A stretch of DNA of 64,000 nt from Engelhardtia mirabilis (GTDB lineage: Bacteria; Planctomycetota; UBA1135; GCA-002686595), in NCBI GenBank assembly GCA_007751255.1, contig CP036296.1, forward strand, positions 5,456,001 to 5,520,000, written 5' to 3'. Every line of letters begins with the position of its first letter. The first letter of the stretch is position 1. Position numbers and translations under genes: made by a program. This document shows, piece after piece, positions 49,169-63,184 of this stretch. The notes beneath the pieces are model-generated. The model did no database searches. It had not been told where the DNA came from and saw only the letters and a list, made by a program, of their open reading frames with translations.

Positions 49169-49657
49169 CTACGGACCCTGACCGCCCTGCGGGACGGCCG
49201 GCGGTCCGCTGCTGCCGAGCAGGGCCTGTCGCAGTCGTTCACCGAAGGGCACCTGTCGGGGCATGAGGGTCGCGAACGACAGCACTCGCTCGGAGCCACC
49301 GCGGCTCCAGGCAACGTCGATGTCGACCCGGTAGAGGATCGCGGCGGGCCCCTCGTGGTTCGGCTCCGGCACGGCGCTGGCGCTGTAGACCAGGCGATCG
49401 CTGCCGGGCACCGGGGCGTTCTCGATCGTGATCGGGGGCCCCACCGAGCCGTCTTCGAGGATGGGGAACAGGCGCTCCTCCAGGTCGGCCACGATGAACT
49501 CGAGCGAGCCCGCGGCCTCGGCGCGCCGCATGGCGTTCGACCCCAGACCGGCTCCGAAGGACAGGAGGCCCAACACCACGGACATCCCGATCAGCAGGAT
49601 GCCCATGGCGAACACGACCTCGAGGATCGTGAAGCCGCCCTTGCGCGTGGTCTTCAC
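49169..49657 (-). CDS. GspI-like minor pseudopilin
   Basis: The protein has 162 residues. It starts GTG 49657 with KTTRKGG followed by FTILEVVFAMGILLIG: a type IV prepilin leader, cleavage after Gly8 and Glu at mature position 5. The length and soluble part fit GspI/PilV-type pseudopilins. The GTG overlaps the previous stop as GTGA, which decides the start. It would be processed by a prepilin peptidase that is not in the window. It ends with a Pro/Gly-rich tail. Confidence 0.82.
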   Translation of the reverse strand: MKTTRKGGFTILEVVFAMGILLIGMSVVLGLLSFGAGLGSNAMRRAEAAGSLEFIVADLEERLFPILEDGSVGPPITIENAPVPGSDRLVYSASAVPEPNHEGPAAILYRVDIDVAWSRGGSERVLSFATLMPRQVPFGERLRQALLGSSGPPAVPQGGQGP

Positions 49658-50757
49658 AGGCTCCAATCCTCGCGGTGCATGGGGACCAGGACCTCGCGCA
49701 CGAAGGTCCGTGAGAAACGCAGTTGCTCGCCCGCCTTGTGTGGCACCGGTCGCGTGCCCCGTTGGCCGCGCTCGACGGAGACGCGCGAACCATTGCTGGC
49801 CTTGACGCGCATCCACTCCTCGCCGAGCAGGACCAACTCGCCGTCGTTCGGCAGGTGATCGGGTTCCATCACGTCCAACTCGAGGTCGTCGGCGGCGACC
49901 GAGCTGGCCAGGCTGGTCCGACGGCGTGCGTCGTCGGGACGCTCGAACTCGAACTCGAAACGCATCCGCCGCGGCAGGAGCGGATCGCCGTCGTAGGACG
50001 GCATCCCGGGCCAGGCGCGGTTCTGGGGCGAGCGCTCGGCGTCGGGGCGCTGGAGGTTGCGCGCGTCCCAGCAGATCGCGGCGTCGCGCAGGTCGTCCCC
50101 CGCCTTCCAGCCGTCGCGCAGCACGGTGGTCTGGCCGGCGAACAGGAGCCGCCAATCGAGCACCCCCGCGGCCACCAGCTCGAGCTGGTCCGTGCGCGGG
50201 TAGCCGTTGCCGGCGAAGAACGTGCGGTCGAAGAACGAGGCCGAGCTCTGGTCCCCGAGCAGGCGCTCGCCGCGCAAGAGGCGCAGGGCGCCGTCGGCCA
50301 GCGCGCCCTCGGGCCGGTCGATCGGCACCAGGCACCAGACCACCTCGACCAGGGGCGTGGCCCCGCGCGGCGCCGCGCCGACCTCGCCCGCCTCGTCGAG
50401 GGGCGTGCGCAGCCCCAGTCGCAAGAGGTCCTCGGCGCTGGCGCGACGCACGAGCCGCAACCTGGGCAGGGGGCGATTGGCGATGCCGTCCCCGTCCACG
50501 TCGAACATGGCCCAGTCGTACAGGAGGTCGCCGTCGGAACCACCGGCCAGGTAGTCGAGGTCGCGCAAGAGCCATTCGGCAACGGACGTCTCGACCTCCA
50601 TGCGTTCGCGGCCACGCTCGGCGTCCTGCCAGATCGAGAGGGTCGCATCCAAGACCTGGACCAGGGCCACCGAGAGCACCGCGAAGAGGCCCAGGGCGAG
50701 CACCAGCTCGACCAGGGTCAGACCGCGGCGCGCGGCACTCGCGAGCGGGGCCGCCAT
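49654..50757 (-). CDS. GspJ-like pseudopilin, enlarged
   Basis: The protein has 367 residues, longer than the usual 200. MAAPLASAARRG precedes LTLVELVLALGLFAVLSVAL: a prepilin leader with Glu at mature position 5. The body has GspJ-like features (LLRDLDYLAGGSDG, EVVWCLVPIDRPEGALA). Residues about 304-348 carry GELVLLGEEWMRVKASNGS and ERGQRGTRPVPHKAGEQLRF, a motif that recurs in the giant GspK-like neighbour. ATG 50757 shares its A with the upstream stop; a GTG at 50760 is equally possible. Confidence 0.75.
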   Translation of the reverse strand: MAAPLASAARRGLTLVELVLALGLFAVLSVALVQVLDATLSIWQDAERGRERMEVETSVAEWLLRDLDYLAGGSDGDLLYDWAMFDVDGDGIANRPLPRLRLVRRASAEDLLRLGLRTPLDEAGEVGAAPRGATPLVEVVWCLVPIDRPEGALADGALRLLRGERLLGDQSSASFFDRTFFAGNGYPRTDQLELVAAGVLDWRLLFAGQTTVLRDGWKAGDDLRDAAICWDARNLQRPDAERSPQNRAWPGMPSYDGDPLLPRRMRFEFEFERPDDARRRTSLASSVAADDLELDVMEPDHLPNDGELVLLGEEWMRVKASNGSRVSVERGQRGTRPVPHKAGEQLRFSRTFVREVLVPMHREDWSL

Positions 50758-53700
50758 CACAGGTCGCTCCTCTCGAAGACCCGTCCGGGGGCGATGTAGT
50801 CGATCGCCACCTGCTCGATGACGGGCACGTCCTTCCAGCCCTGGGAGCCGGAGAGGGGGTCGAAGGCACCCTGCTCGAACTGGTGGAACAGTCGCAGCTC
50901 GACCCGACTGGCCTGGGCCCGCACCGGCGCCGGGCGGCCGGCGAGCTGATCGAGCCAGTAGCGCTTCAGCCCCGGGGTCTTCTCCGGATCGGCGTCCCAG
51001 GCCACGGTCGGGTCGGTGCGGATCATGAGCCCGGTCCGCACGCCACCGAAGGACGGCTCGGTCTGCTCGACCAACACCGAGCGCACCCAGGCGTCGGGCT
51101 GGGGCAGATCCAGCCCCAGGAACTGCAACTCGGGTGCGTCGCTGTCGTCGGGGTAGCGATCCCAGTAGCGCGTCTGGAAGTGGATCACGGGCGCACCTTC
51201 GGGGTGCGCGTCGGGCTCGGTGCCGAAGCGGCCGCGGAACAGGCCGGCCCCCTTGCCGTCCTGGGCGCCTGGCTCGGTCGAGCGCGCCGGCATCCCCAGG
51301 CCGTCGATCTTGTTGGTGTGGTGCAGCAGCTCCTCGCCGATCAGCACCGTGCCCTCGCGCGGCATGTCGGAGTTGTCGGAGACGAAGATGTCGGCGTCGT
51401 CGGCCGACATCGAAGAGGTCAGCTTGGAGACGCTGATGTGGTCGAGGAAGTGCACCGGCTCGCCGGGCACGTGGGCCTGGGCCTCGGTGCCGAGCAGACC
51501 GCGACCGAGCCCTTCGACCGAGAGCAGGAGCGACCCCTCCTCGGTCATGTCGGTGTAGGCCACGATCTCCGAGCCGATCCGCATCAGGCCGGCGTCCGTG
51601 TCGAAGCCCGAACCGCTGCCGAAGAGCCCGGTCCCCGGCACGTGACCGCGCACCGCGCGCAGACGGCTGACCGAGAGCAGCATCGCATCGTCCCCGTCGT
51701 CGAGCCCGGCGGACAGGATGTACGCCGCCCCGCGCAGGCTCTGCCCGGCCTGGACCTCCGTGCGCCGACGGAAGACCTCGTCCACCAACATCGCGACGGG
51801 ATCCTCCGACTGGGCTACGTCGCCGCCGAGCGCGACCTGGGTCGCCAGGCGGGGCATCTCACCGGAGGGGAACTTGACCAGGCGCGAGATCCGGCGCGGG
51901 TCGACGCGGTCGGCGTTGGCGGGGTTGCCGTTGGGACCGAAGTCGGCCGAGGGCGCGCCGAAGACGCCCAGGGGCTCGCGCATGGCCACGTAACAGGGCC
52001 CGCTCAGGAAGCCCTCGTCGCTACGCAACAAGGGGGTGTCGGCGGTCACCGTCAGGTTGGGCCCGTCCTCCCAGGCGTACCGCAGGTAGCCGGCCGGGCG
52101 CACCGCGCGGTGGATCGTGCCCGGCGAGCCGATGTCCTCCACGTCCTCGTCGACCAGGAACACCGGGTCGCCGGCGCCGGGCCAACCCCAGCTGGGCTGG
52201 ATGTGCTGCAGCTCGTCGACCTCACCGGCGACAGTGCGCCGATCGAAGACGCGGAAGACGGGCAGCACGTCGACGTCGGCGCTGTGCTCGAAGGAGTAGG
52301 TCCCGAGCACGCCGCGGTGCTGGAAGCCGGTGCGCACCGCGCGGGTGTAGACCAGGTCGTCCGCGATCTCGACCGCCTCGCTGCCACCGTGCTCGGGAGC
52401 CCAGAAGACGCCCGAGGAGATCTGCGCGGCCGACGGCGCGGGTTCGATAATCGCGGGTTCCGGCACCGCAGGCACCGTCGCCGCGAGCGGCTCGAGGGGC
52501 GCCGGCTCCGGCACGAAAGGACCGCCCACGCCCCCTTGGAGACTGCCGACCAGGCGCTCCTCGATGAACGTGATCTGGTTGAGCGCGGCGCTGAACAGTT
52601 CCAAGAGACCGAGGGGAGCGCTGCGTACGAGGTCGATGCCGCTGCCCGAGGTCTTGATCTCGTCATAGCGCACCCATTCGGACTTGCCACTGTCGACGCC
52701 CGTCTCGGTGATCTGGACGAACTCCGACTGGAAGGGCTGCGGCGGCAGCAGCGACTGGGCCGTTCCGGTCACGCCGATCGAGATCGGAGCGACGATCGTC
52801 TGCCACTCGATGCTCCGGTTGTGACGATTCGAGACGCTGTCGAAGCCCACGCTCGGGAAGCCCTGCGCGCCCAGGACCAGCTCCCAGTCGACGATGAAGG
52901 CCTTGGGCCCGCCGATCTTGCCCAGGAGGTCCACGGCCTGGTCTCCGAGCCGTGCAAGCTCGCTGGAGTCGACTCCGAAGCCGCCCTGGGGAATGGTCAG
53001 CACGTCACCGTCCACCCCCGAGTAGCGCACGATCTCGAGACCGCCCACGGGCGTCATCGTGTCGATCAGCTCGAGGAACTCCGGGTCTTCGATGGCCTCG
53101 TCGACGAAGTTCGTGACCCAGATGCGCTGCATCACGGCGGCGTAGCCGCCGTCGGGGCTGAAGGCGCTCATGACGTCGCCGGTGGATTGGCCGGCGTCCA
53201 CCGGCGCCAGGCGCAGCCCGGTCACGTCGTTGTCGGCACTGTCCCAGCCGCGCCCGAACTGGAGCGCACCGGTCACGAACCCGCCCCCGGGCAGGGTCAA
53301 CTCGATCTCGGCCGACAACAGGTCCCCCAGGGGGTTGCTGGTGCCCTCGAGGCCCACCACCCGACCGGCGGCGAAGGCGCCCAGGTCGCCGCGCAGCCGC
53401 AGTCCGCCCGCGGGCACGTTGCTGTCGATCGGCAGGCTGTAGCCGTACACGTGCACCGGCGTGCCGGCCGGGTAGCTCGTGTCCTTGAACAGTCCCTCGT
53501 TGTCGTAGGTGCCCGTGGCGGTCGGCGGAGCGATCTCGCGCGCCAGTCGGCCGCCGAAGCCGGCCAGCTCGCCGGAGTCGGTGAAGGCCACCTGCAGGGT
53601 GTCGTCGTCGAGCACGGTGGCCTCGATCACCTCGTCGCCGATGCGGATCGGCCCGAAGGGCGGGAAGCCCTCGGTCGACTCGACCTGGATCAGGCTGGCG

Positions 53701-56144
53701 TCGGTTCCCAGGGCCGAGGTCAGGCGCGTCATCCCCGGGGTGCGCGCCTTGGAAAAGCCGTCCACGCGCAGCAGCAGCTGGTCGGGGCGCGTGCCACTGA
53801 CGGTCGCCTCCACGTGGGACCAGGTGTCGGCCGGCAGCGCGCCGGAATCCCCCAGCTCCAGGCGCGCCTCGGTGTACTCGGGGAAGGCGGTCGCGGGGTG
53901 GTCGCCGGGGCCGTCGAGGACCCGCAGCACGAGCTCGTTCGACTCCTCCTCCACGAACAGGGTCACGCGGTCGCCGTTGGGATCGTCGCCAGCGACGTCG
54001 AGCAGTCGCCCGGCGGTGGTCCCTGTCGGCTTGGCCCAGAAGGAGAGGGTGAAGGGCGCCAGGAGCCCGGCGTCGAACAGGCCCAGGGCGCTGGCGGAGC
54101 GTTGCCAGGGCTCTTCGGAGGTGTCGTGTCCCTCGAGGGCGGTCTCGTCCAGGTCGAAGTGGGTCACCGCGCCAGCCCGCGGCCCCTCTTCGTCCAGGCG
54201 CACGTGCCAGGGCTTGGCGAAGCCGCTCTCGTCGCGCGAGGGGAACAGGCTGCGCGCGAAGGGCACGGCCTGGTCGTCACCCAGGTCGAGCTCGCCGGTC
54301 ATGAACTGCACCCGCGAACGCGGCGGGGGCGTCGAACCGTAGCCGGTGTCGTGCAGCGTGGTCGTGATCGGGCCCGTGCCCCAACCGGGGGCGGCGCGGC
54401 CCAGGCGCAGGGACTCGTCGAAGTCCTCCTGGGCCGTCCAAAGGCGCAAGAGATCCGTCTGCGGCGCGACCCACTCGATCTGGCGGCGACGACCGGCCAG
54501 GCGCTGCACGCCGCTGGGCGCGTTGACCGAGGCGCGCAGCTCGATGTCGTAGGTGTCGCGCGACGAGAAGGAGAAGGGCGCGGTCGAGAACTCGAGCGAG
54601 ACGTCGGTGGCGCAGACGGCGTTGGTGTAGAGGGCCCGCGCGTCGTCCTGGCTGAGGAAGGGCGGATCGCGCTCTTCGAGCCGGGCCAGGAAACGCTCGA
54701 GGGCGGCCTGCTTCTGTTCCTCGCCGACGGCTGTCGACAGGGGCTTGACCTCGTCCCAGGAAGCGATCCCCGCGGCCGGTAGGACGATCCGCTGCAGGAA
54801 GTCCTCGAAGCCGACGAAGGGCCGTTGGGTCATGACCCGCACGGCCAGCTCCTCGGCCTCGGCGCGGGAGATGCGCTGGTTGACCCCCACCAGCTTCAGG
54901 TTCTCGAACAGCGCGCTGAGCACCTCGGGCGAAGCCGAGTTGATGTTGACCGGTCGCCGCGCGAGCACCAGCACCTCCGCCTCGCCAGCGTCGTAGCTGT
55001 TGACCACGGTCTCGGTCAGCACCGCGGCCCCACCGCCGGCGCCCCGCACCAGGCCCAGCTCACTGGTCCCGCCCTGGCGGATCATCACCGTGGTCCCGGG
55101 GTTCACCCACCGGCCGTCGGAGAGCAGCAGCCTGCAGTCCGTCCCCGCGTTCAGGTCGTTGAGCAGGCGCACGGGATACTGCCAACGATCCCCAGCGGCC
55201 ACGCCCCCGTGCAGGGTCGTGGTACGCCCCAGGGTCGCGGTCAGGTCAGACAGCACGCGATCCTCGAGCACCGCCTGCAGATCGGGCTGGCCCAAGGACG
55301 GGTCCGACTCGGCCAGGGCTGCGGGGATGAAGGCCGGCAGCTCGCGGGCGATGTCACCCACGGTCAGCCCGCGCGCGTCCTGCATGCCGCGCGACATGCG
55401 CCACTGGGCCAGGCCCCAACCGTCGTAGCCGGTCACGACCGCGCCGGCCCCGTGGCCGGAGGCCAGCCAGAAACCGCAGGGCTCGGCGGTCCCGAACAAC
55501 CCGCGAGTCATCCCGCCCAGCTTCGAGCCCTCGCGCGAGGTGTAGTTCACGAGCTCGCCCCCGATCCGCAACAGACCCGAGGAACGCAGGCCGCGACCTC
55601 CGGCCAGGTCGAACTCTTGCTTGCCGGCGTCGATCGGTTGGGTCAGGTAGCCGGCTTGACCGAGCAGATTCGCCAGCAGTAGGGGCGACGCGCTGTTCAG
55701 GTCGACCAGACCGGAGAGGTCGGTGACCTCGTGGCCCCACATGACCCCGTTGCGATCCGCCGCGTCCAGCAGCTCCGCCACGTCGCGGTCGTCCGGGTTC
55801 AGCTCTTCCGGCCCGTCGCTGAAGCGCGTCGAGTCGAGGGCCGGATGGGAGCGACCCAGGGCGTGACGCGCGTGTCGCGCCGCGGTGTCGAGGGCGATCC
55901 GCGTCTGCGTCTCGGACAAGAGCCGCGCGCTGGTCCGGTCCGTGTTGCTGGCGGTCCACAGGAACGGCGTGCACAGCACCAGCAGGGACACCAGCACGAG
56001 CAAGACGGTCACCAGGGCATAGCCGCCCCGGGCTCTCGCGTGTCCTGCCCTTGTCACTGGACCGTTCATGGAATGCTTCACGTCCGTCCTCTCGCCCCCG
56101 GCGCGGCCGAGCCTCGAAGTCAGCGCACTGGCTCGCACGCTCAT
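50757..56144 (-). CDS. Giant GspK-like pseudopilin with LamG-like domain
   Basis: The protein has 1795 residues; ordinary GspK has about 330. After a 41-residue lead, the helix is G-YALVTVLLVLVSLLVLCTP. It has Thr rather than Glu at mature position 5, as in GspK. SAM-like GspK segments follow: VDLNSASPLLLANLLGQAG (about 150) and PVNINSASPEVLSALFENLK (about 395-460, with FVGFEDFLQRIV). A LamG/concanavalin-like domain spans about 660-790 (FTLSFWAKPTGT, DTWSHVEATVSGT, LLLRVDGFSK). The rest is beta-rich with several copies of an I-G-x-E-x-x-x-Y/H-T ... RG-x-x-GT motif. ATG 56144 overlaps the upstream stop as ATGA; ATG 56069 is a possible internal start. The protein may cap a pseudopilus; its size and lectin-like domain are unusual. 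Confidence 0.75.
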   Translation of the reverse strand: MSVRASALTSRLGRAGGERTDVKHSMNGPVTRAGHARARGGYALVTVLLVLVSLLVLCTPFLWTASNTDRTSARLLSETQTRIALDTAARHARHALGRSHPALDSTRFSDGPEELNPDDRDVAELLDAADRNGVMWGHEVTDLSGLVDLNSASPLLLANLLGQAGYLTQPIDAGKQEFDLAGGRGLRSSGLLRIGGELVNYTSREGSKLGGMTRGLFGTAEPCGFWLASGHGAGAVVTGYDGWGLAQWRMSRGMQDARGLTVGDIARELPAFIPAALAESDPSLGQPDLQAVLEDRVLSDLTATLGRTTTLHGGVAAGDRWQYPVRLLNDLNAGTDCRLLLSDGRWVNPGTTVMIRQGGTSELGLVRGAGGGAAVLTETVVNSYDAGEAEVLVLARRPVNINSASPEVLSALFENLKLVGVNQRISRAEAEELAVRVMTQRPFVGFEDFLQRIVLPAAGIASWDEVKPLSTAVGEEQKQAALERFLARLEERDPPFLSQDDARALYTNAVCATDVSLEFSTAPFSFSSRDTYDIELRASVNAPSGVQRLAGRRRQIEWVAPQTDLLRLWTAQEDFDESLRLGRAAPGWGTGPITTTLHDTGYGSTPPPRSRVQFMTGELDLGDDQAVPFARSLFPSRDESGFAKPWHVRLDEEGPRAGAVTHFDLDETALEGHDTSEEPWQRSASALGLFDAGLLAPFTLSFWAKPTGTTAGRLLDVAGDDPNGDRVTLFVEEESNELVLRVLDGPGDHPATAFPEYTEARLELGDSGALPADTWSHVEATVSGTRPDQLLLRVDGFSKARTPGMTRLTSALGTDASLIQVESTEGFPPFGPIRIGDEVIEATVLDDDTLQVAFTDSGELAGFGGRLAREIAPPTATGTYDNEGLFKDTSYPAGTPVHVYGYSLPIDSNVPAGGLRLRGDLGAFAAGRVVGLEGTSNPLGDLLSAEIELTLPGGGFVTGALQFGRGWDSADNDVTGLRLAPVDAGQSTGDVMSAFSPDGGYAAVMQRIWVTNFVDEAIEDPEFLELIDTMTPVGGLEIVRYSGVDGDVLTIPQGGFGVDSSELARLGDQAVDLLGKIGGPKAFIVDWELVLGAQGFPSVGFDSVSNRHNRSIEWQTIVAPISIGVTGTAQSLLPPQPFQSEFVQITETGVDSGKSEWVRYDEIKTSGSGIDLVRSAPLGLLELFSAALNQITFIEERLVGSLQGGVGGPFVPEPAPLEPLAATVPAVPEPAIIEPAPSAAQISSGVFWAPEHGGSEAVEIADDLVYTRAVRTGFQHRGVLGTYSFEHSADVDVLPVFRVFDRRTVAGEVDELQHIQPSWGWPGAGDPVFLVDEDVEDIGSPGTIHRAVRPAGYLRYAWEDGPNLTVTADTPLLRSDEGFLSGPCYVAMREPLGVFGAPSADFGPNGNPANADRVDPRRISRLVKFPSGEMPRLATQVALGGDVAQSEDPVAMLVDEVFRRRTEVQAGQSLRGAAYILSAGLDDGDDAMLLSVSRLRAVRGHVPGTGLFGSGSGFDTDAGLMRIGSEIVAYTDMTEEGSLLLSVEGLGRGLLGTEAQAHVPGEPVHFLDHISVSKLTSSMSADDADIFVSDNSDMPREGTVLIGEELLHHTNKIDGLGMPARSTEPGAQDGKGAGLFRGRFGTEPDAHPEGAPVIHFQTRYWDRYPDDSDAPELQFLGLDLPQPDAWVRSVLVEQTEPSFGGVRTGLMIRTDPTVAWDADPEKTPGLKRYWLDQLAGRPAPVRAQASRVELRLFHQFEQGAFDPLSGSQGWKDVPVIEQVAIDYIAPGRVFERSDL

Positions 56145-57181
56145 TCGATCGCTCCGTAGGCCGAGACCTTGATCGAGTGCTGCTCACCGTCGGCGGTGAT
56201 CACGGCCCACACCAACTCCCGCCCGTGGATCCGGCGATCGAGGCCGCCGTCGGCCTCGAAGCGCGCCGCGCTCGGGATGGCACCGACCCAGGTCGTGCCG
56301 TGGGGCAGGTCGAGGGGCTCTCCACGCTCATAGACCGCGAAGACCAACTCATCCACCATCCCCTGCAACGGGCGCGGCTTGCCGCCCACGACCAGGGGGC
56401 CCTTGATCTGCGGCAGGGCGTCCCCGAGCGGCAGGATCCCGACCGGGAAGCCGTCCACCAGCACGCGGAACTCGAAGCGGTCGTAGAGCAGGTCGACCCG
56501 GGTCCAGCGGTCGAAGGGCACACTGCCCGGCGGCAGGCGCAGGTCGACGCGGCCACCGCGCCGGCGCCCGCTGGGATCGTCGGCCACGCCGGGGACCAAC
56601 CAGGCGGAGAGGCGGCCGCCGCGCTCGTACTCGAGCCCGGCCACGTCGCCCAGCCGCCAGATGGTCGCGTCCAGGTCGTCCGTGGGCCGGATCGCGACGC
56701 CGATCGAGAAGCCCTCGGTCACGTCGTACTCGCCGGAATCGTGGACCGGGATCACGAAGGCCGATTCGCCGCCCGTGCCCTGGAAGTCGAGGCCCTGGCC
56801 CAGGAAGCCGGGGGCGCTCTGGGGCGCGCCGACGCGGTACCCGAGCGGCTGGGTCGAGGGGCCGACTTCGTCTCCGTCCAGGAAGCCGCGCTCCATGTGC
56901 CAGCTCCCGCGCACGCGCGGCGTGTGGAGCACCAGCGCGGTGCCGCCGGCCTCGACCCGCAGCGCCGCTGGCAAGCCCTCCAGCTGGGCCGAGGTCTGGG
57001 CTGCGCGCATACCGCTGCGCAGGGCCGACTCGACCAAGGCACCGTCGTTGTTCGCCGTGGCGAAGACCCCCAGCCCCGCGCCGAAGATCATCGCCATGAT
57101 CGCCATCACGAGCAGCAGCTCGAGCAGGGTCACCCCTGCCCGCGCGCGCGCGCCACTCCCGTGATGGTCGACCTGGATCAA
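56141..57181 (-). CDS. GspH-like pseudopilin carrying a LamG-like domain
   Basis: The protein has 346 residues. The leader ends at Gly16, followed by VTLLELLLVMAIMAMIFGAG with Glu at mature position 5. Residues about 35-75 resemble GspH. The rest is a LamG-like fold: LDFQGTGGESAFVIPVHDSG, EGFSIGVAIRPTDDLDATIW, FDRWTRVDLLYDRFEFRVLV and a final strand set. Such jelly-roll domains bind sugars or proteins. The only reasonable start is TTG 57181, as the next in-frame candidates lie inside the leader. It follows gspG by 10 bp and overlaps the giant GspK-like gene by 4 bp. Confidence 0.72.
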   Translation of the reverse strand: MIQVDHHGSGARARAGVTLLELLLVMAIMAMIFGAGLGVFATANNDGALVESALRSGMRAAQTSAQLEGLPAALRVEAGGTALVLHTPRVRGSWHMERGFLDGDEVGPSTQPLGYRVGAPQSAPGFLGQGLDFQGTGGESAFVIPVHDSGEYDVTEGFSIGVAIRPTDDLDATIWRLGDVAGLEYERGGRLSAWLVPGVADDPSGRRRGGRVDLRLPPGSVPFDRWTRVDLLYDRFEFRVLVDGFPVGILPLGDALPQIKGPLVVGGKPRPLQGMVDELVFAVYERGEPLDLPHGTTWVGAIPSAARFEADGGLDRRIHGRELVWAVITADGEQHSIKVSAYGAIE

Positions 57182-57191
57182 GATCTGCGGC

Positions 57192-57824
57192 TCAGTTGCG
57201 ACTGAAGGTCGTGATGTTGTCCTCGGGCGTCATGAAGCGCCCGTCGGGACCGGCCGAGATGAGCTGGTACTTGTTGTGCTGGAAGTAGCGCCGAGTGGTC
57301 TCGTTCTTGAACGCGCGAACCTCGTCGTCGAGCAGCTCGCCCGTCTCCTGGTCTTCCACCGTGTAACGCTGGGGCCGCTCGTAGTCGCGGTTGTGGAAGT
57401 AGGCGATGGGGTTGCCCCACTGGTCGGCGACCTCGAACAACTGACGGTCGGGGAAATCGGTGAACTGCTTCTTGCTGGAGTCGGCGTCCAGGTTGACCAG
57501 CTCGTCGGGGTCCAAGTCACCGCCGCCCTCCCAGCCGTTCGACCACAGGGACGCAACCAGCGCTTCGATCCCAACGTTGACGGCGTTGGCGCCGCCGGCG
57601 CTCTCCGGCAGGGTGCTGGCCGGGTAGCCGCCGAACTCCCGTTCGTAGGCATCGATGGCGGCGCTGAGTTGGGTCATCGAGACCTTCGTCAAGCGCACCT
57701 TGGCACTCTCCTCCGCGCCGCCCAGGGCGGTCACGAGCAGGCCGATCAGGATCCCGAGGATCACCACCACTGCCATCAGCTCCAGAAGCGTGAAGCCGGC
57801 GCGGTCGATTGTCTTGGTTGCCAT
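57192..57824 (-). CDS. gspG: Major pseudopilin GspG
   Basis: The protein has 210 residues. MATKTIDRAG precedes FTLLELMAVVVILGILIGLL: type IV prepilin leader, cleavage after Gly10, Glu at mature position 5. The soluble part shows AIDAYEREFGGYPASTLPES, DQWGNPIAYFHN and LISAGPDGRFMTPEDNITTF, the last being the GspG calcium-loop type C-terminus. It is longer than the usual 145 because of an insertion after the first helix. It should form the shaft of the pseudopilus. It lies between the TPR-LamG gene (50 bp) and the GspH-like gene (10 bp). Confidence 0.88.
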   Translation of the reverse strand: MATKTIDRAGFTLLELMAVVVILGILIGLLVTALGGAEESAKVRLTKVSMTQLSAAIDAYEREFGGYPASTLPESAGGANAVNVGIEALVASLWSNGWEGGGDLDPDELVNLDADSSKKQFTDFPDRQLFEVADQWGNPIAYFHNRDYERPQRYTVEDQETGELLDDEVRAFKNETTRRYFQHNKYQLISAGPDGRFMTPEDNITTFSRN

Positions 57825-57874: not shown

Positions 57875-60739
57875 TCAGGTTCCGTGGATGCGTACGATCT
57901 CGACGTCGTCCATCGAGACCTCGACCCGCCGACCGGTGTCGCCCTCGGCGAACAACCCGATCAAAAGGGGCGAGTTGCCGCGCGCCAGGTTGGTCATGGG
58001 CACGTCCTCGAGCACGGGGATGCCGTCCATGAAGATCGTCACCACGGTGTCGGCCCCTTCGCCGGAGCGCTCGATCCGCAGGCGCACCCACTGGTCGGCG
58101 GGGAAGGGAAAGTCCTGGGCCGAGAGGTCGCGCCAGTCCGTCTGGCTGATGCCGGGGACTTCGGTCTTGATCTGACCCACCCCGTCGCGCGAGCGCGCCA
58201 CGCCGGCGTAGGCCTGGACCCTGCGGCGCGCGCCCTCGCCCTGCTCGCGGGAGACGAAGATGCCAGCGCGCGCGTTGCTGTCGGCCGAGACCTTGATCGA
58301 AGCCTCGATGGCGATGAATTCGGAGGCCGCGTAGTCGCGGTAGAAGGTGGCCTCGCCGCTGGGGGTCTTGAAGTTGCCCGAGAGCACCAGCGTCCCGCCG
58401 CGCAGGGCCGCGGTCGGACCGGCGGACTCCTTGCGGCGCCAGCCGTTGCCCACGGTCGAGTACTCGAAGCCGTCGCTCCACACGTCCTTGGCCACGTGCT
58501 CGGCCAGGGCCGCCAGACGCTCGCGGGACCAGACCCGCACCGGGTCGTCCTCGGGCCGCGCGCGCAGGGCGTCGTCGATCGAGCGCAGTTGGATCAGCGC
58601 CTCCTCCACGTCGCCCAGGCGGTAGATCGTCCAGGCCCGGCCGCCCAGGGCCACGGGATCGGAGGGCGAGGCCGCGAGCGCGGCGTTGAAGGTGTCGCGC
58701 GCCCGCAGGAAGGCGCCCAGCTCGAGCAGGTTGATTCCGCGCAGGCCGAGCACGTCGGCCCGCGGATCGGCACCCAGGTGCGCCACGTCGGCCCCGAGAG
58801 CCACCCGCGCCAGACGCTCGTCAGCCAGCAGCATGGCGCGCTCGAAGTAGAGCTCGGCCGCGCCCGTGTTGCCCTCGCGCCAGTCGGCGATGCCCAGGCC
58901 CACCAGGGCGTCCTCGAGGTCCGACTCCAGCTCGAGCGCGCGCCGGAAGGTCGCCGCGGCCTCGAGGGTGTCGAAGCGCTCGAGCAACAGGCGCCCGCGC
59001 TGGTAAAGGGCCCAGACGTTCTCCGGGTCGGCCGACAGGGCCATCTCCGCGAAGTTCAGGGACTCGTCCCGATCCCCGGCGCGCTCGGCCACCCAGGACA
59101 GGGCGCAGCTCGCTTCGGCCACCCGCAGGGGATCCGCCTCGAGCGCCGCCGCCAGGTCACCCAAGGCCCGCTCCAGGTCGCCAGCCTCGGCCGCCAGCAG
59201 GCCACCAGCGAGGAGCAGATCGAAACCCAGGCTCTCGAAGCCCTCGGCCAGGTTCGCGTCGCCGTCCAGCAGCCAATCGGGCAGGGACAGGCGCGCCTCG
59301 TCGTTGCCGAGTAGGGCGCAGGAGGCCAAGCCGGCCAGGGCCTCCTGGGACTCTGGATCCGCACGCCAGGCGTCGCCGTAGACCTCGGTCGCCGTGGACA
59401 CCTCACCCAGGGCCACCAGCACCGCCCCGTAGTCCAGGCGCACGCGCAGGCGCTCGCTGGCCAGGCGTGGGTCCTGGGGCAGGCGGGTGAATGCGTTGGC
59501 CAAGGCTTCGCGGGCTCCGACCAGGTCGCCGCGCTCGAGCAGGAACGAGCCCAGGGCCGCGTGGCCGAGCCACGAGCCGCGTTCGACCGCGACGGCGCTA
59601 CGCAGGCGCGCCTCGGCCTCGTCGAACAGGCGGAAGCGAGCCTCGAGCCGTGCCAGACCCACGCGAACTTCCGCACGGTGGCCAAAGCGCTCCATCAGGG
59701 CCTCGTACTGTTCGAAGGCGCGCTCGAACTCGAAGCCCGCCTCGAAGACACGCGCCAGGCCCAGGCCGGCCCGCGGATCCTCGGTCAGGAACCCGGCGAG
59801 CCGCGTGTAGACGTCCTCGGCCATCTCGAGCGCGCCGTCGACCTCGAGCCGCAGGTCGATGCAGTCCGCGCCCAGGGCCAGCATCGGCTCGACCGACGCG
59901 GGCGTGGGCTGTTCGGGTAGGTCGTGGAAGCGCTGGTGCAGGTCGTTGGTGTCGTTGCGCGCCAGCTGGAAGTCGGTCAGGCGCTCGCGCTCGTACTCGA
60001 TCGGCGGCGACCCGGGGAAACGCGGCACGCCGCGGTCGGCCTCGTACTCGACGAACTGGATCGGCTCTGAACGGCGATCGGCGTCGCGCAAACCGTAGGG
60101 GTACTCGTTCTCGATGCGCCCGAACTGCAGGTCCGCGCCCCCGTCGCGTCGGATCCAGTCGTAGAGCGACATGTAGGTCTGCTCCCGCAGACGGCGCTCC
60201 TCGGCATCGAGGAACTGGCTCTCGATCTTCTCGACCACGCCCTTGCCGGGCACGTCGAGGTAGCCGAGCTGGGCCAGCTGACCCAAGGTCTCGTCGTCCA
60301 GGTCCCCGCCGAAGGAGGACTCACCGAACCCGCCACTGAACCCGTCGGGCTCGAACTCGTCGACGGAGACGTCGAACAGCCCCTCGACCTCGGTCACCAC
60401 CGGGTAGGTCGGCAACAGGCGCGAATAGACCCTCGGCGAAGGCCCCACTGGACCGGCCGGAGCCAGGGCACGCAGGGGCGGCAGCGGCGGCGGCTGGAAG
60501 CCGAGGGGATCCAAGGGTCGCGTGTCGCGCGGCGGCGAGAAGAGAGCGCGACGGAGGTCGTCCGCACCCCGCGCCAGGGAGGCGGAGGCCACGTCCGGCG
60601 ACGTGAAACGCACCAGGTCGGGCGCTTCTGCGCCCCTGTCCCTCGAAGGGCGCGGCGGCGCATCCCGGGTCAGCACCAGGGCCCCGACGAGCGCGAGCGC
60701 GACACCGAAGACGATTTGCTCTTGGCGAATTTCGGCCAT
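57875..60739 (-). CDS. Membrane-anchored TPR protein with C-terminal LamG-like domain
   Basis: The protein has 954 residues. One N-terminal helix (QIVFGVALALVGALVLT, about 8-24) anchors it. A Pro-rich and then acidic region covers about 30-270. TPR-type repeats run from about 300 to 740, for example ADPENVWALYQRGRLLLERF and LEDALVGLGIADWREGN. The final 190 residues form a jelly-roll/LamG-like domain: GGTLVLSGNFKTPSGEATFY, ADQWVRLRIERSGEGADTVV, VEVSMDDVEIVRIHG. This last part resembles domains that follow glycan-related or DUF1080-type proteins. It lies between the PilO-like and GspG genes, so it is probably a structural or scaffold part of the same machine. Confidence 0.7.
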   Translation of the reverse strand: MAEIRQEQIVFGVALALVGALVLTRDAPPRPSRDRGAEAPDLVRFTSPDVASASLARGADDLRRALFSPPRDTRPLDPLGFQPPPLPPLRALAPAGPVGPSPRVYSRLLPTYPVVTEVEGLFDVSVDEFEPDGFSGGFGESSFGGDLDDETLGQLAQLGYLDVPGKGVVEKIESQFLDAEERRLREQTYMSLYDWIRRDGGADLQFGRIENEYPYGLRDADRRSEPIQFVEYEADRGVPRFPGSPPIEYERERLTDFQLARNDTNDLHQRFHDLPEQPTPASVEPMLALGADCIDLRLEVDGALEMAEDVYTRLAGFLTEDPRAGLGLARVFEAGFEFERAFEQYEALMERFGHRAEVRVGLARLEARFRLFDEAEARLRSAVAVERGSWLGHAALGSFLLERGDLVGAREALANAFTRLPQDPRLASERLRVRLDYGAVLVALGEVSTATEVYGDAWRADPESQEALAGLASCALLGNDEARLSLPDWLLDGDANLAEGFESLGFDLLLAGGLLAAEAGDLERALGDLAAALEADPLRVAEASCALSWVAERAGDRDESLNFAEMALSADPENVWALYQRGRLLLERFDTLEAAATFRRALELESDLEDALVGLGIADWREGNTGAAELYFERAMLLADERLARVALGADVAHLGADPRADVLGLRGINLLELGAFLRARDTFNAALAASPSDPVALGGRAWTIYRLGDVEEALIQLRSIDDALRARPEDDPVRVWSRERLAALAEHVAKDVWSDGFEYSTVGNGWRRKESAGPTAALRGGTLVLSGNFKTPSGEATFYRDYAASEFIAIEASIKVSADSNARAGIFVSREQGEGARRRVQAYAGVARSRDGVGQIKTEVPGISQTDWRDLSAQDFPFPADQWVRLRIERSGEGADTVVTIFMDGIPVLEDVPMTNLARGNSPLLIGLFAEGDTGRRVEVSMDDVEIVRIHGT

Positions 60740-60742
60740 GGT

Positions 60743-61516
60743 TCAGCCCTCCCCGCGATCGGCGGTGTCGATGACCACGCGCGGCACCAGGTAGGTCACC
60801 TGGGCGCGGCACTGGTCCGAAGTGCCGCGCAGCGGCTCCATCTCGATCTCGTCCAGGACCAGCGCACGCCCCGTGCCGCTGCCGGCGTCTTCGAGCACCC
60901 GCAGCACGGCCAGGTCGTTCCCGCGCAGGTCGAACTGGACTCGCGTGCGCTCGATCGCCCCCGCGCCGTCCTTCGAACCCAGGCGCGGGTCGAGTCGGAT
61001 GCGGACGTTGCGGACTTCGCCGACGCCCTCCTCGATGGCCCGCGACAGGACCCGCTCGACCAGGTCCAGCCCGTCCAGGTAGCGCTCCAGCTCGTCCTCG
61101 CGCGTGGGCGAGATCTCGGGCAGGCCGAAGCTCGGATCGAGCTCGACGTTGGCGCGACCCGCCGCCGGCAGCAGCTCGCCGCGCACGCGCGCCACCGCGT
61201 TGAGGTAGCGCTCGGGCGTGGTGGGCTCGTTCGGGTCGCGGAACTCGGGCCGGCCGCTGAAGCGCACGGCCGCGCTGAGCTGCTCGACCGCCCCGCGCAG
61301 GGCCTCGTTGTCCTCGCGTGCCAGGTCGCGATCCGCGGGAGAGTAGGCGGGCGCGCTGAGCTTGGCCTGCTGGCTCTTGCGCGAGGTCTGCGCCCGCTTC
61401 ACGTCGGCGCCGACCGTCTTGGACACGATGGCCAAGCCGATCAGGAACGCCACCAGGCCGGCGGCCACCTGACCGACGAAGCCCTTGTTTTCCTGCCAGT
61501 AGTCGTCGAAGTCCAT
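60743..61516 (-). CDS. PilO/GspM-like assembly platform protein
   Basis: The protein has 257 residues. A short cytoplasmic start (MDFDDYWQENKGF) precedes one helix (VGQVAAGLVAFLIGLAIVSK). A helical stalk and a ferredoxin-like periplasmic domain follow (VRNVRIRLDPRLG, TRVQFDLRGNDLAVLRVLED, YLVPRVVIDT). Topology and position directly after the PilM-PilN fusion fit PilO or GspM. Sequence identity to known PilO is not obvious to me, so the call leans on context. Spacing is 9 bp from the upstream gene and 3 bp to the downstream one. Confidence 0.6.
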   Translation of the reverse strand: MDFDDYWQENKGFVGQVAAGLVAFLIGLAIVSKTVGADVKRAQTSRKSQQAKLSAPAYSPADRDLAREDNEALRGAVEQLSAAVRFSGRPEFRDPNEPTTPERYLNAVARVRGELLPAAGRANVELDPSFGLPEISPTREDELERYLDGLDLVERVLSRAIEEGVGEVRNVRIRLDPRLGSKDGAGAIERTRVQFDLRGNDLAVLRVLEDAGSGTGRALVLDEIEMEPLRGTSDQCRAQVTYLVPRVVIDTADRGEG

Positions 61517-61525
61517 GGGATCAGC

Positions 61526-63184
61526 TCACCCGCCCTGGACGTTCTCGTCGTCGGGCTCGGTCGTGGCGTCGTCTTCGCGCTCGGCGAGCAGCGAGAGGGT
61601 CAGGTTGAAGCGGCGCTGATCGGGCGACAGGCCACCGCGCACGACAGCCGTGGGAAAGCCCACCTGGAGCGCGCCGAGCAGGCGCTGGAAGCGCGCCGTG
61701 TTGGGCTCGACGCCCTCCTCGGCCCGGCCCTCGATCGAGAGCACCGGGATCTTCTCGCCGCGGTCCGCGCCGAACTCCTCGTCGGTGGCGAAGGTGCTGG
61801 TCAGGTCCGTGATCCAGAAGCCATCGGGCAGGTGCCGGTCAAGCAGCCGCAGGGTGCGCGCCAACTGGGTACCTGAGGCGGCCATGCCGTAGAGCTCCCC
61901 GGCAACCGCCGCCAGCTCCTCGTTCTCGGCCATCAACTGCTCGGTCTCGCTGTTGACCCGCTCGCGGCTGCGAACCTGGGTCGACAGACGACTGATCTGC
62001 CCGCGCAGGTCGGTCAGCTCGGCTCGCTTCTCCACCACGGACCAGCCGATGTAGGCCAGGCCCACCACGGCAGCGGCGATCAGGAACGCCTTGCGCCCGA
62101 GGAACTCGCGCTTGCGCTGCAGCGCGGCCGGGACGATCTCGACCGAGTAGGCCTCGGGATCGCTGCCGGCGTGGGCCAGGCCCAGGGCGACCACCGACTC
62201 CAGCTCGTGCGCCTCGAGCGCGCGCTGGGCCTCCGGCGACAGCTTCGAGACGTCCACGACGGTGAACGGCTCGAAGGGCGCGACCGGCACCGACATGGCG
62301 CTCGACAGGTAGCGGTCGAGGCCCTTGAGCCGCGCACCCCCGCCGCAGATGAAGACCCGGTCCAGCTTGAGCGACGAAATCTTCACCTGGCTCTTGGCGA
62401 AGGCCAGGGTCGACTGAAGCAGGCCCAGGATCTGCCCGGCGGGCGCGAGCCCGGCGCGCGAGACCTTCTCCGCCGTCGAGTCCAGGTAGCGCGCGCCCGG
62501 CGTCAGGTCGACGGACTCCTGCTTGATCTTCTCGGCCCGCGCGGCGTCGCAGTTCAGACGGCTCGCGATGGCGTCGTCGAACAACTTCGAGCCGCCCGAG
62601 AGGTTGCGCGCGAAGACCAGGTCCGCGCCGCGCACCAGCACGACGTCGGTGTTCTCGTGGCCGATGTTCGCGAGCAGCACCGTGTCGTCCATGACCACGC
62701 CGAAGCGCAGCCAGGCGTTGTAGAGCGCCACCGCGTTGGGAGTGAAGGCGTCGAGCCTGCCGCCGACCGCGGCCAGGCCCTCCTCGTGGGCCTCGAGCAG
62801 GCTCTCCCGCGCCATCGCCAGGAGGACCACGTCCTCGCCCTCGATCTCGGGCATCTCCGGCAGGACGTTGAAGTCCGCCGCGACCTGGGCGTCGGAGGAG
62901 CCGCCGACCTCCTCCACCTCGAAGCGCATCAGCTTGCGAAGTTGCCAGTCCGCCAGGCGCGGGACGCGGCTGTAGCGCAGGTTGACCTCGCGGCCGGTGA
63001 TGCCGACGCGGGCGCCGGTGGGCTTGAAGTCGGGCGCGGCCTGCTCCCAGGCACTGGCGACGTCGTCGGACCGATGGGTGCCGAAGGCGTAGTCGGTCGC
63101 CACGAAGGTGTTCCCCTTGGCGTGGCCGCGGAGGAACACCGCCGAGCGGTGGCCGATGTCGACGCCGGTCGAGGTGCGGGGCAT
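61526..63184 (-). CDS. PilM-PilN fusion (GspL-like) assembly platform protein
   Basis: The protein has 552 residues. The N-terminal 360 are an actin-like PilM domain: TGVDIGHRSAVFLRG, LLANIGHENTDVVLVRGADL, FARNLSGGSKLFDDAI, VFICGGGARLKGLDRYLSSA and VVALGLAHAG. A membrane helix (FLIAAAVVGLAYIGWSVV, about 367-384) follows, then a coiled coil. The PilN-like periplasmic domain comes last (LRLLDRHLPDGFWITDLTST, LLGALQVGFPTAVVRGGLSP). The domain order equals that of GspL, which joins the same functions in type II secretion. ATG 63184 begins directly at the actin fold. A 207-bp gap separates it from the next gene upstream. Confidence 0.82.
   Translation of the reverse strand: MPRTSTGVDIGHRSAVFLRGHAKGNTFVATDYAFGTHRSDDVASAWEQAAPDFKPTGARVGITGREVNLRYSRVPRLADWQLRKLMRFEVEEVGGSSDAQVAADFNVLPEMPEIEGEDVVLLAMARESLLEAHEEGLAAVGGRLDAFTPNAVALYNAWLRFGVVMDDTVLLANIGHENTDVVLVRGADLVFARNLSGGSKLFDDAIASRLNCDAARAEKIKQESVDLTPGARYLDSTAEKVSRAGLAPAGQILGLLQSTLAFAKSQVKISSLKLDRVFICGGGARLKGLDRYLSSAMSVPVAPFEPFTVVDVSKLSPEAQRALEAHELESVVALGLAHAGSDPEAYSVEIVPAALQRKREFLGRKAFLIAAAVVGLAYIGWSVVEKRAELTDLRGQISRLSTQVRSRERVNSETEQLMAENEELAAVAGELYGMAASGTQLARTLRLLDRHLPDGFWITDLTSTFATDEEFGADRGEKIPVLSIEGRAEEGVEPNTARFQRLLGALQVGFPTAVVRGGLSPDQRRFNLTLSLLAEREDDATTEPDDENVQGG

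Follow-up and report, generated by a model that had tools for sequence, protein, structure and literature searches.

A planctomycete prepilin operon with a giant GspK-like protein and a LamG-bearing GspH-like pilin, a candidate type IV filament with an adhesive tip

The window analysed here is a 64,000-nucleotide stretch of the Engelhardtia mirabilis genome (contig CP036296.1, positions 5,456,001 to 5,520,000) that carries five prepilin genes on its minus strand, from 57824 to 49169, arranged head to tail in the order G-H-K-J-I; all features described below lie on this strand. Four-base overlaps link the H-K, K-J and J-I genes, GC3 values of 0.90-0.95 across the pilin genes confirmed their coding composition, and each of the five products begins with a class III leader followed by a hydrophobic alpha1 segment, which was modelled for GspH only. 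The coordinates, strand, gene order and prepilin leaders proposed in a previous sequence-only reading of this DNA were thereby confirmed. A scan for promoters and terminators returned no promoter-like sites and six terminator-like sites against 4.1 expected, and an Rfam search gave nothing useful.

Glu was found at position +5 in every leader parsed for GspG (n = 16), GspH (n = 40, including one GspG, from locus L037), GspJ (n = 41) and GspI (n = 16), with one gene counted twice in both the H and J sets (L007 = L054). The K leaders had no Glu at their start (39 rows, of which 38 were parsed and L147 was not), as read by eye from the strings, the script frame being off by at least one position in some rows. 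GspK proteins of type II secretion systems (T2SS) typically lack Glu5, and the pattern observed here, with Glu5 in G, H, I and J and absent from K, is that of a T2SS pseudopilus.

The first gene of the operon encodes a GspG-like major pilin of 210 aa (57192..57824) that matched N_methyl at 27 bits, and TIGR01710 GspG and T2SSG at 49 and 19 bits, respectively, both below their cut-offs. Orthologs of GspG were identified at 49 of the 55 loci L055-L109, and a search of genome contigs for further relatives was uninformative. At the other end of the operon lies a GspI-like minor pilin (49169..49657; N_methyl 19.1 bits, cut-off 21.2). This protein had been described as enlarged, which was ruled out: the start at 49657 gives a product of ordinary size, 162 aa (154 when mature), the 566-aa ORF being merely a longer frame.

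The GspH-like minor pilin (56141..57181, ~346 aa) was assigned a LamG domain from profile matches and a structure model. In the AlphaFold model (m6355800d0be1; pLDDT 88.2, pTM 0.82), the alpha1 pilin helix region spans residues 8-59 (56978..57133), and a LamG jelly roll at residues 106-277 (56324..56839) is inserted into the pilin head between pilin-type strands at residues 63-86 and 296-330. Foldseek comparison with the PDB returned ConA-like jelly rolls, and a PDB profile search with one profile matched neurexin LG (positions 209-277), laminin LG (203-261) and pilins (4-62), with a best E-value of 2.9e-6 against the neurexin and laminin LG chains. Pfam LamG was detected in 32 of 39 aligned GspH proteins, including that of the window at 16.8 bits, which is below the Pfam cut-off of 27.6, and in 13 of 18 GspH proteins of other families; N_methyl was present in 38/39 and 17/18, respectively. 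The alignment (A2) comprised the window and 38 of 40 rows, L037 and L054 (= L007) having been left out, and rows with no detected leader pattern (L014, L019, L033, L036) never entered it; a further alignment (A4) held 46 of 48 GspH proteins. The 'GspH' of L037, which is actually the GspG of that locus, is present in the profile of the 55-locus search and in the leader count. The model and profiles together indicate that GspH carries a genuine LamG/ConA-like jelly-roll fold, as the sequence-only reading had anticipated, and GspH is a modular pilin, bearing an extra domain that is not specific to pilus biology.

The third gene encodes a giant GspK-like minor pilin of 1795 aa (50757..56144; mature 1754 aa, 187.5 kDa, Thr at +5), identified from its leader and profile matches. 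A T2SSK-type segment lies at residues 399-456 (54777..54950; PF03934 22.8 bits, cut-off 24.2), and the NF037980 GspK model matched the protein at 30.5 bits, as well as 16/19 and 19/20 giant K proteins of two sets, in each case far below its cut-off of 130. The claim that this protein also bears a LamG-type domain holds in part. The Pfam-matched portion, residues 696-812 (53709..54059), reached 27.0 bits against a PF13385 cut-off of 27.6, and profile-profile comparison with the GspH LamG gave 94% (E 1.5e-7); a PDB profile search with GspK gave nothing convincing, and LamG was recognizable at the sequence level in a minority of the giant K proteins (6/19 and 9/20 of the two sets). A putative second LamG-type domain in GspK is supported only at the level of sequence profiles. 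Conservation extends along the whole of K, not the LamG alone, and most of K is conserved sequence without an assigned fold rather than LamG; the GspK alignments A5 and A10 comprised the window and 38 of 44 eligible homologs.

Within GspK we also identified four copies of a beta repeat, at approximately residues 167-245 (55410..55646) and 808-905 (53430..53723), and at residues 1514-1565 (51450..51605) and 1575-1659 (51168..51422). The third matched Rcc01698_C (PF23666) at 29.2 bits, above the cut-off of 27, and the others were recognized by profile-profile comparison. A further copy lies at the C-terminus of the GspJ-like minor pilin (approximately residues 284-346, 49723..49911) and scored 72-98% against the GspK repeats by profile-profile comparison; a small phage-tail-like beta repeat is common to K and J. 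GspJ itself (49654..50760) matched N_methyl at 19.3 (cut-off 21.2), TIGR01711 GspJ at 19.7 (below cut-off) and TIGR02532 at 16.7 bits (cut-off 16.3), and at 368 aa is enlarged, as had been proposed. Single copies of the mature H, I, J and K proteins total ~278 kDa. The earlier expectation of several hundred kilodaltons of ligand-binding-type folds is overstated, as the LamG domains of H and K account for an estimated ~20 kDa each.

The operon extends upstream beyond the five genes previously described, with TPR, PilO-like and PilM/N genes directly upstream. The TPR protein (57875..60739, 954 aa) matched TPR families and has a C-terminal jelly-roll-like domain that matched 3keto-disac_hyd at 17.4 bits, below the cut-off, and the LamG of GspH at 89% by profile-profile comparison; its alignment (A9) held 32 of 56 TPR proteins. 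The next gene encodes a PilO/GspM-like inner-membrane protein (60743..61516, 257 aa) named from position and layout, with no Pfam match and one chance-level NCBIfam match, whose gene adjoins the operon at 44/55 and 7/20 loci. It is followed by a PilM-PilN-like fusion (61526..63184, 552 aa; PilM_2 56.7 bits; NF045709 Amuc_1101 family 138 bits, cut-off 650) that was found at 44 of the 55 loci L055-L109 and in 14 of 16 further upstream stretches. Downstream, an exported-looking protein with a C-terminal CxxC...CxxC motif (P0010, 47464..49149) recurs with the operon, accompanying it at 42/55 and 13/20 loci, and the motif is present in 49/55 of these homologs.

A survey of gene order across Planctomycetota, as the sequence-only reading had suggested, covered 20 loci from 16 further families, picked because their matches were strong; 17 of them have the order G-H-K-J-I, with the strand read for K alone. 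All five genes were matched in 24 of the 29 loci of the window's own family (L006-L034), the remaining five being cut short. A match to K was found in 59 of 61 genomes, including the window's own, and the giant K was weakly matched or absent in families f10, f30, f47, f50, f57, f62, f67, f74 and f95, many of whose genomes are 95-100% complete. The 30 genomes of this follow-up search had been chosen for a weak or absent first match, with the exception of G103 (2.3e-21). A GspH-profile search of 33 genomes mixed generic prepilin and generic LamG matches, which makes its tally of 33/33 uninformative, so we used those spanning both leader and LamG, which were found in at least five genomes among the matches listed. 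The loci are not independent, as L055-L109 overlap other loci, several contigs being equal in length and evidently identical, and L110-L120 and L054 repeat earlier places. The retention of this arrangement in many distant relatives suggests that it forms a real, and probably adhesive, machine.

Elsewhere, the genome encodes a separate T2SS (D-E-F-G-H-I-J) with ordinary small pseudopilins, as well as a small GspK-like protein of 545 aa. No GspD, GspE or GspF, engine or secretin was seen near the operon at L036-L120 or L139-L158. A pilin-less PilB-PilT-PilB-PilC locus, whose PilB proteins have c-di-GMP-binding-type N-termini, was present in the window's own genome (G000) and in G051. Stretches from 11 more genomes, chosen as GspF matches with no secretin match nearby, yielded it in 10 cases; in G051, the sole other GspF gene belongs to the T2SS. 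This orphan locus is likely the engine of the operon. As no engine was seen nearby, the two were paired by elimination, for the most part in a single genome of 89% completeness; the PilT of this engine would favour a retractable filament. In 3 of 17 longer flanks, the neighbour within 20 kb upstream is instead a twin-secretin/ExbB-ExbD locus, a weak lead that counts against this pairing. We also considered the L133 secretin, which shares its contig with K, at a distance of ~48-91 kb, in 6 of 18 genomes (G000, G011, G051, G057, G316, G356; distances taken by hand), and rejected it as a partner: it adjoins the small GspK-like protein in a neighbourhood that by eye looks housekeeping, and more likely serves the T2SS.

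Four minor pilins plus GspG, a K without Glu5, and sub-threshold GspK matches liken the operon to the minor pseudopilins GspH-I-J-K of T2SS. In contrast to those systems, K, H and J are far larger here, PilM/N adjoins, GspD/E/F were not seen nearby, and the genome has its T2SS elsewhere. LamG-bearing pilins and glycan-binding pilus tips are already known (PMC8179133, PMC9934059): a survey of modular pilins counts those with PF13385 among its 15 most frequent architectures (PMC8179133), and in Streptococcus sanguinis the pilin PilC carries a demonstrated ConA-like lectin module and was modelled with PilA and PilB at the type IV pilus tip (PMC9934059). The operon resembles S. sanguinis PilB/PilC in that a minor pilin with a class III leader bears a foreign binding module (PMC8179133, PMC9934059). 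In that survey the extra domains lie at the C-terminus, whereas the LamG of GspH lies between pilin strands, and the most extreme multi-domain protein that it names has 860 residues, compared with 1795 aa for GspK; as it searched for IPR012902 (PMC8179133), it may have overlooked any K pilin that lacks the usual leader motif. A 187-kDa K pilin, a LamG within the GspH head, and a spread of this kind were not found in the accessible text of the literature on LamG-bearing pilins and glycan-binding tips.

Large tips are known from other filaments. PilY1-capped type IVa pili present a large adhesin on a set of four minor pilins, which prime assembly as well (PMC7541494). PilY1 is not itself a pilin but a protein of its own, whereas the large portion of the tip here is continuous with the K pilin. 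A search of 61 genomes for PilY1 gave no match, with a control that was also silent, and is not evidence of absence. The Kil (Tad) pili of Myxococcus likewise end in minor-pilin trimers, some with large extra domains, but are Tad-type with a Flp major pilin, unlike the operon here (PMC12075869); in the main text of that paper, as available, 'LamG' is absent and 'lectin' appears once, about S. sanguinis. We also compared the operon with the Verru_Chthon cassette proteins A-D (NCBIfam TIGR02600, 02598, 02599 and 02596). Protein A weakly matched 3/20 and 1/19 giant K proteins (E 0.0014-0.01) and did not match the K of the window, and the TIGR02600 search of the window's own genome had a silent control. 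Matches to models B, C and D were confined to the leader ends of I, J, H and G, and a full-text literature search for the cassette name returned no paper.

We consider it reasonably probable that the operon specifies a dedicated type IV filament with a built-in adhesin tip, distinct from both the T2SS and the ordinary type IV pilus of the genome. The operon would supply the pilins and inner-membrane alignment proteins, with G as the shaft subunit and H, I, J and K as a putative priming and tip complex. The built-in adhesin would consist of the LamG within the GspH head and the K pilin fused to ~1,300 further residues, which include copies of the phage-tail-like repeat, with one more in GspJ, and apparently the second LamG-type domain. 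Such a tip would most likely bind glycans or glycan-coated surfaces, with the orphan PilB-PilT-PilB-PilC locus powering extension and retraction of the filament and one of the genome's secretins serving for export. The sequence-only reading had offered an adhesive or glycan-sensing pseudopilus or a specialised secretion tip. By analogy with S. sanguinis PilC, and given the LamG fold of GspH, the adhesive or glycan-sensing tip fits best. A type II system is probably not the setting, as a separate T2SS and small GspK lie elsewhere, PilM/N and PilO-like genes form part of the operon, and its probable engine is PilB-PilT-PilB-PilC. A specialised secretion tip is less likely.

Were the operon to encode a secretion pseudopilus, its large H and K heads would recognize particular folded substrates and push them through a secretin, in the manner of the T2SS tip, with nothing displayed outside. 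The best family labels are indeed those of T2SS (TIGR01710, TIGR01708, NF037980), all below their cut-offs. Three points make this unlikely: a T2SS equipped with G-H-I-J, and a small GspK-like protein, are already present elsewhere in the genome; PilM/N in the operon and PilT in the orphan engine are pilus features; and a 187-kDa K head seems bigger than substrate recognition needs. LamG domains can be structural instead of sugar-binding, and the LamG parts and repeats could serve as scaffold only, holding a very large tip or plug in one piece or fixing it to the secretin like a cork, with no outside ligand. The beta repeat common to K and J would be in keeping with proteins of the operon binding one another, as would the LamG-like folds of H, of K and probably of the TPR protein, and conservation is not confined to LamG in K. 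As a lectin module has been demonstrated in PilC, the counterpart from the literature (PMC9934059), we regard a pure scaffold as somewhat less likely still.

As a special case of the adhesin tip, the operon could build the planctomycete dextran-binding pili-like fibres, for polymer capture and uptake. Gold-labelled dextran was seen on such fibres at crateriform structures in P. limnophila and G. obscuriglobus (PMC5394234), where the accessible text does not identify the fibre proteins, and a LamG-tipped retractable filament would suit. Against this stand the nine families with a weak or absent giant K match and a GspH match across leader and LamG in at least five of 33 genomes among the matches listed, and we judge this special case improbable.

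Returning to the adhesin-tipped filament, one might speculate further, with low confidence, that it is a widespread planctomycete machine apart from T2SS and ordinary type IV pili, in which the K-fused adhesin and LamG-bearing H act as a retractable, c-di-GMP-controlled glycan grapple that catches polysaccharides or glycan-coated surfaces and draws them to the cell. If the adhesin-tip reading is right, many planctomycetes would share a glycan-binding pilus tip that is conserved and built in, with genes that can now be named, and their adhesive or polymer-binding fibres would become testable through deletion of a single operon. The idea of modular pilins would also widen, from a single grafted domain to an entire tip complex of ~280 kDa.

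Read on the minus strand from high to low coordinate, the gene series begins with a PilM-PilN-like fusion (63184-61526), a PilO-like protein (61516-60743) and a TPR protein (60739-57875), and continues with five prepilin genes encoding GspG (57824-57192), GspH (57181-56141), GspK (56144-50757), GspJ (50760-49654) and GspI (49657-49169). The window (G000:C1:5456001-5520000) has a G+C content of 71% within a 6.9 Mb genome; GC3 is 0.90-0.95 across all of the listed genes and, from the coordinates, the H-K, K-J and J-I junctions each overlap by four bases. Still further upstream is a protein of FHA-like appearance, judged by eye. Downstream of GspI lies P0010 (49149-47464, minus strand), an exported-looking protein of 561 aa with a C-terminal CxxCxG...CxxC motif, for which a Pfam search returned no family and NCBIfam only a weak match. 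It adjoins the operon in 42 of 55 named-contig loci and in 13 of 20 loci from other families.

N_methyl or prepilin-domain models match G, H, J and I, some with scores under cut-off, and the relatives in which leaders are visible represent seven of the order's families (f1, f2, f4-f8). Every parsed leader of G, H, J and I carries Glu at +5; this residue is absent from all 38 parsed K leaders (39 rows, one unparsed), which were judged by eye wherever the frame of our script had slipped. The mature proteins comprise 200 (G), 330 (H), 1754 (K), 355 (J) and 154 (I) residues, mature K amounting to 187.5 kDa. The enlarged GspI of the sequence-only reading was the product of an over-long reading frame.

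Of 61 genomes, counting the one it comes from, 59 contain a match to the giant GspK (P0001). Of the 29 loci from the family (L006-L034), 24 have all five pilin genes and the other five are cut short. Profile matches in the named-contig loci, which are planctomycetes or unplaced bacteria by title, overlap the family set and in many cases end early, numbered 49 for G, 51 for H, 44 for J and 42 for I. When the phylum was searched with a GspK profile (A1), 258 of 392 genomes matched at E 0.001, and by hand count about 180 did so at 1e-20 or better. Among 20 loci from 16 other families, picked for strong matches, G-H-K-J-I is complete in 17, the exceptions being L148 and L150, where K alone was found on the strand read, and L155, which is cut by its contig. 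A broader GspK profile (A8) was run on 30 genomes, most of them picked because earlier matches were weak or absent, and 28 with completeness of 95% or more; it matched 19, strongly only G103 (1.3e-35), followed by G068 (4.7e-12). Because some of the weak matches lie within frames 1300-2700 residues long, those genomes may encode large K proteins that have diverged. Among the matches listed, GspH matches cover both leader and LamG in at least 5 of 33 genomes (G148, G071, G115, G068 and G103). Genomes of families f10, f30, f57, f62 and f67 each have tens of GspH-profile matches; those listed cover either the leader of a prepilin or a LamG region, which points to large families of prepilins on the one hand and of LamG proteins on the other. 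From these searches, many members of the phylum have the machine, although in several families it has diverged strongly or escapes detection.

The LamG-type domain assigned to the GspH-like pilin is borne out by several comparisons. Although the window GspH scores 16.8 bits against PF13385, under the cut-off of 27.6, this model matches 32 of 39 GspH proteins (window plus 38 family or order orthologues) at E <= 0.01 and 13 of 18 from other families (best E 4.9e-18). A structural model built from 47 sequences (pLDDT 88.2, pTM 0.82) has helices within residues 8-59, strands within 63-86, a jelly roll at ~106-277 and further strands at 296, 314 and 325; because strands flank the jelly roll, the model places the LamG domain within the pilin head. 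Foldseek matched ConA-like jelly rolls including arabinanase domain 4 (TM 0.65, target length), a neurexin domain and an NEL protein; the top of its list was taken by clostridial neurotoxin receptor-binding domains, evidence of a common fold and nothing more. Against PDB profiles, the GspH profile (A4) matched a neurexin LG chain at positions 209-277 (E 2.9e-6), a laminin LG chain at 203-261 and pilins at 4-62.

For GspK, the LamG-type domain proposed earlier has profile evidence, and a GspK profile search of the PDB returned only chance-level matches. LamG_3 matches K in 6 of 19 order members and 9 of 20 from other families, and the GspH and GspK LamG regions match each other in profile-profile comparison at 94% (E 1.5e-7), LamG against repeat regions giving 0.4-3.7% as controls. 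Hits to the NF037980 GspK model were obtained for 16 of the 19 K proteins of the order and for 19 of the 20 of other families; the window GspK reaches 30.5 bits, the model's cut-off being 130. GspK also contains four copies of a beta repeat (residues ~167-245, 808-905, 1514-1565 and 1575-1659), matching one another with profile-profile probabilities of 92-98.6%, and a fifth copy in GspJ matches these at 72-98% (controls, 0.1-2.4%). The third repeat matches PF23666 (Rcc01698_C) above cut-off, and this family matches K proteins in 4 of 19 order members and 2 of 20 from other families; its namesake, Rcc01698, is a gene-transfer-agent tail protein. The end of the TPR protein (residues 765-947) is a probable third jelly-roll domain, matching the GspH LamG at 89% and the GspK LamG at 75%, and 3keto-disac_hyd at 17.4 bits, under cut-off.

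The operon contains pilins and PilM/N and lacks an engine. Neither engine nor secretin genes were found near it in 85 loci (L036-L120, of which some are short and several duplicate the same place) or in L139-L158; the same queries gave 63 matches on L132-L138, the loci they came from. Sixteen upstream stretches (~11-20 kb) likewise yielded no engine gene; a secretin was found in two of them (with G159, in 3 of 17 flanks), and PilM/N within 14, the G029 copy lying in the adjoining stretch L054. Elsewhere in the genome are a canonical T2SS D-E-F-G-H-I-J at 3.03 Mb (L132), its GspG above cut-off; a second GspD-like secretin adjoining a 545-aa GspK-like protein (L133); PilQ with a GspM-like neighbour (L134); PilB-PilC-PilA (L135); and PilB-PilT-PilB-PilC followed by a histidine kinase, prepilin-free in the stretch viewed (L136, G000:C1:2772000-2786000). 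Both PilB proteins of L136 carry an MshE-type c-di-GMP-binding motif above cut-off, and this type of locus is conserved within the order as well as in families f14 and f41. Ten of 11 further genomes have PilB-PilT-PilB-PilC, pilin-free in the fetched stretch (in L225 and L227 the first PilB extends past the contig end), the eleventh stretch being a different cluster with PilA. G051 has only two GspF genes, one in an L132-like T2SS and the other in an L136-like locus. By elimination, the orphan PilB-PilT-PilB-PilC engine is likely the operon's motor; G051 is 89% complete, so the pairing is inferred.

A separate type of locus (L137, G000:C1:2302000-2321900; L197, L201 and L208) encodes two secretins, a TPR protein, one ExbB-like and three ExbD-like proteins. 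Paired secretin matches lie ~9-12 kb apart in most of 18 genomes searched, and in G159, G145 and G083 relatives of this locus neighbour the G-H-K-J-I operon. If the locus encodes a proton-driven secretin system, the arrangement would be an unusual one. T2SSG-domain matches at L002 and L004 (G000:C1:6872267 and 6874136) fall within 922-aa open frames whose pilin nature is not obvious.

In an InterPro survey, PF13385 modular pilins are among the 15 commonest architectures, and the most extreme multi-domain modular pilin has 860 residues (PMC8179133). Full-text literature searches, with most subscription papers outside their scope, gave no title or abstract opening on this operon among the papers listed. 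Dextran-binding fibres are described for P. limnophila and G. obscuriglobus (PMC5394234); a link to the operon is attractive but unsupported, because matches were weak or absent in several families.

Assembly of T4P and T2SS filaments is primed by H, I, J and K, which remain at the tip with K as the cap (PMC10191384, PMC7541494, PMC9934059). By analogy, their counterparts here would probably prime the filament and stay at its tip, capped by K. Whereas the T4aP of diderms use a separate PilY1 as adhesin, the K cap is proposed to carry the adhesin within its own chain. An outward-facing position and glycan binding are proposed for the LamG domains on the basis of their fold and of PilC, which binds glycans through its ConA-like module (PMC9934059). 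With tip position, ligand, secretin and engine pairing all putative, extension by PilB and retraction by PilT under c-di-GMP input would make the filament a grapple.
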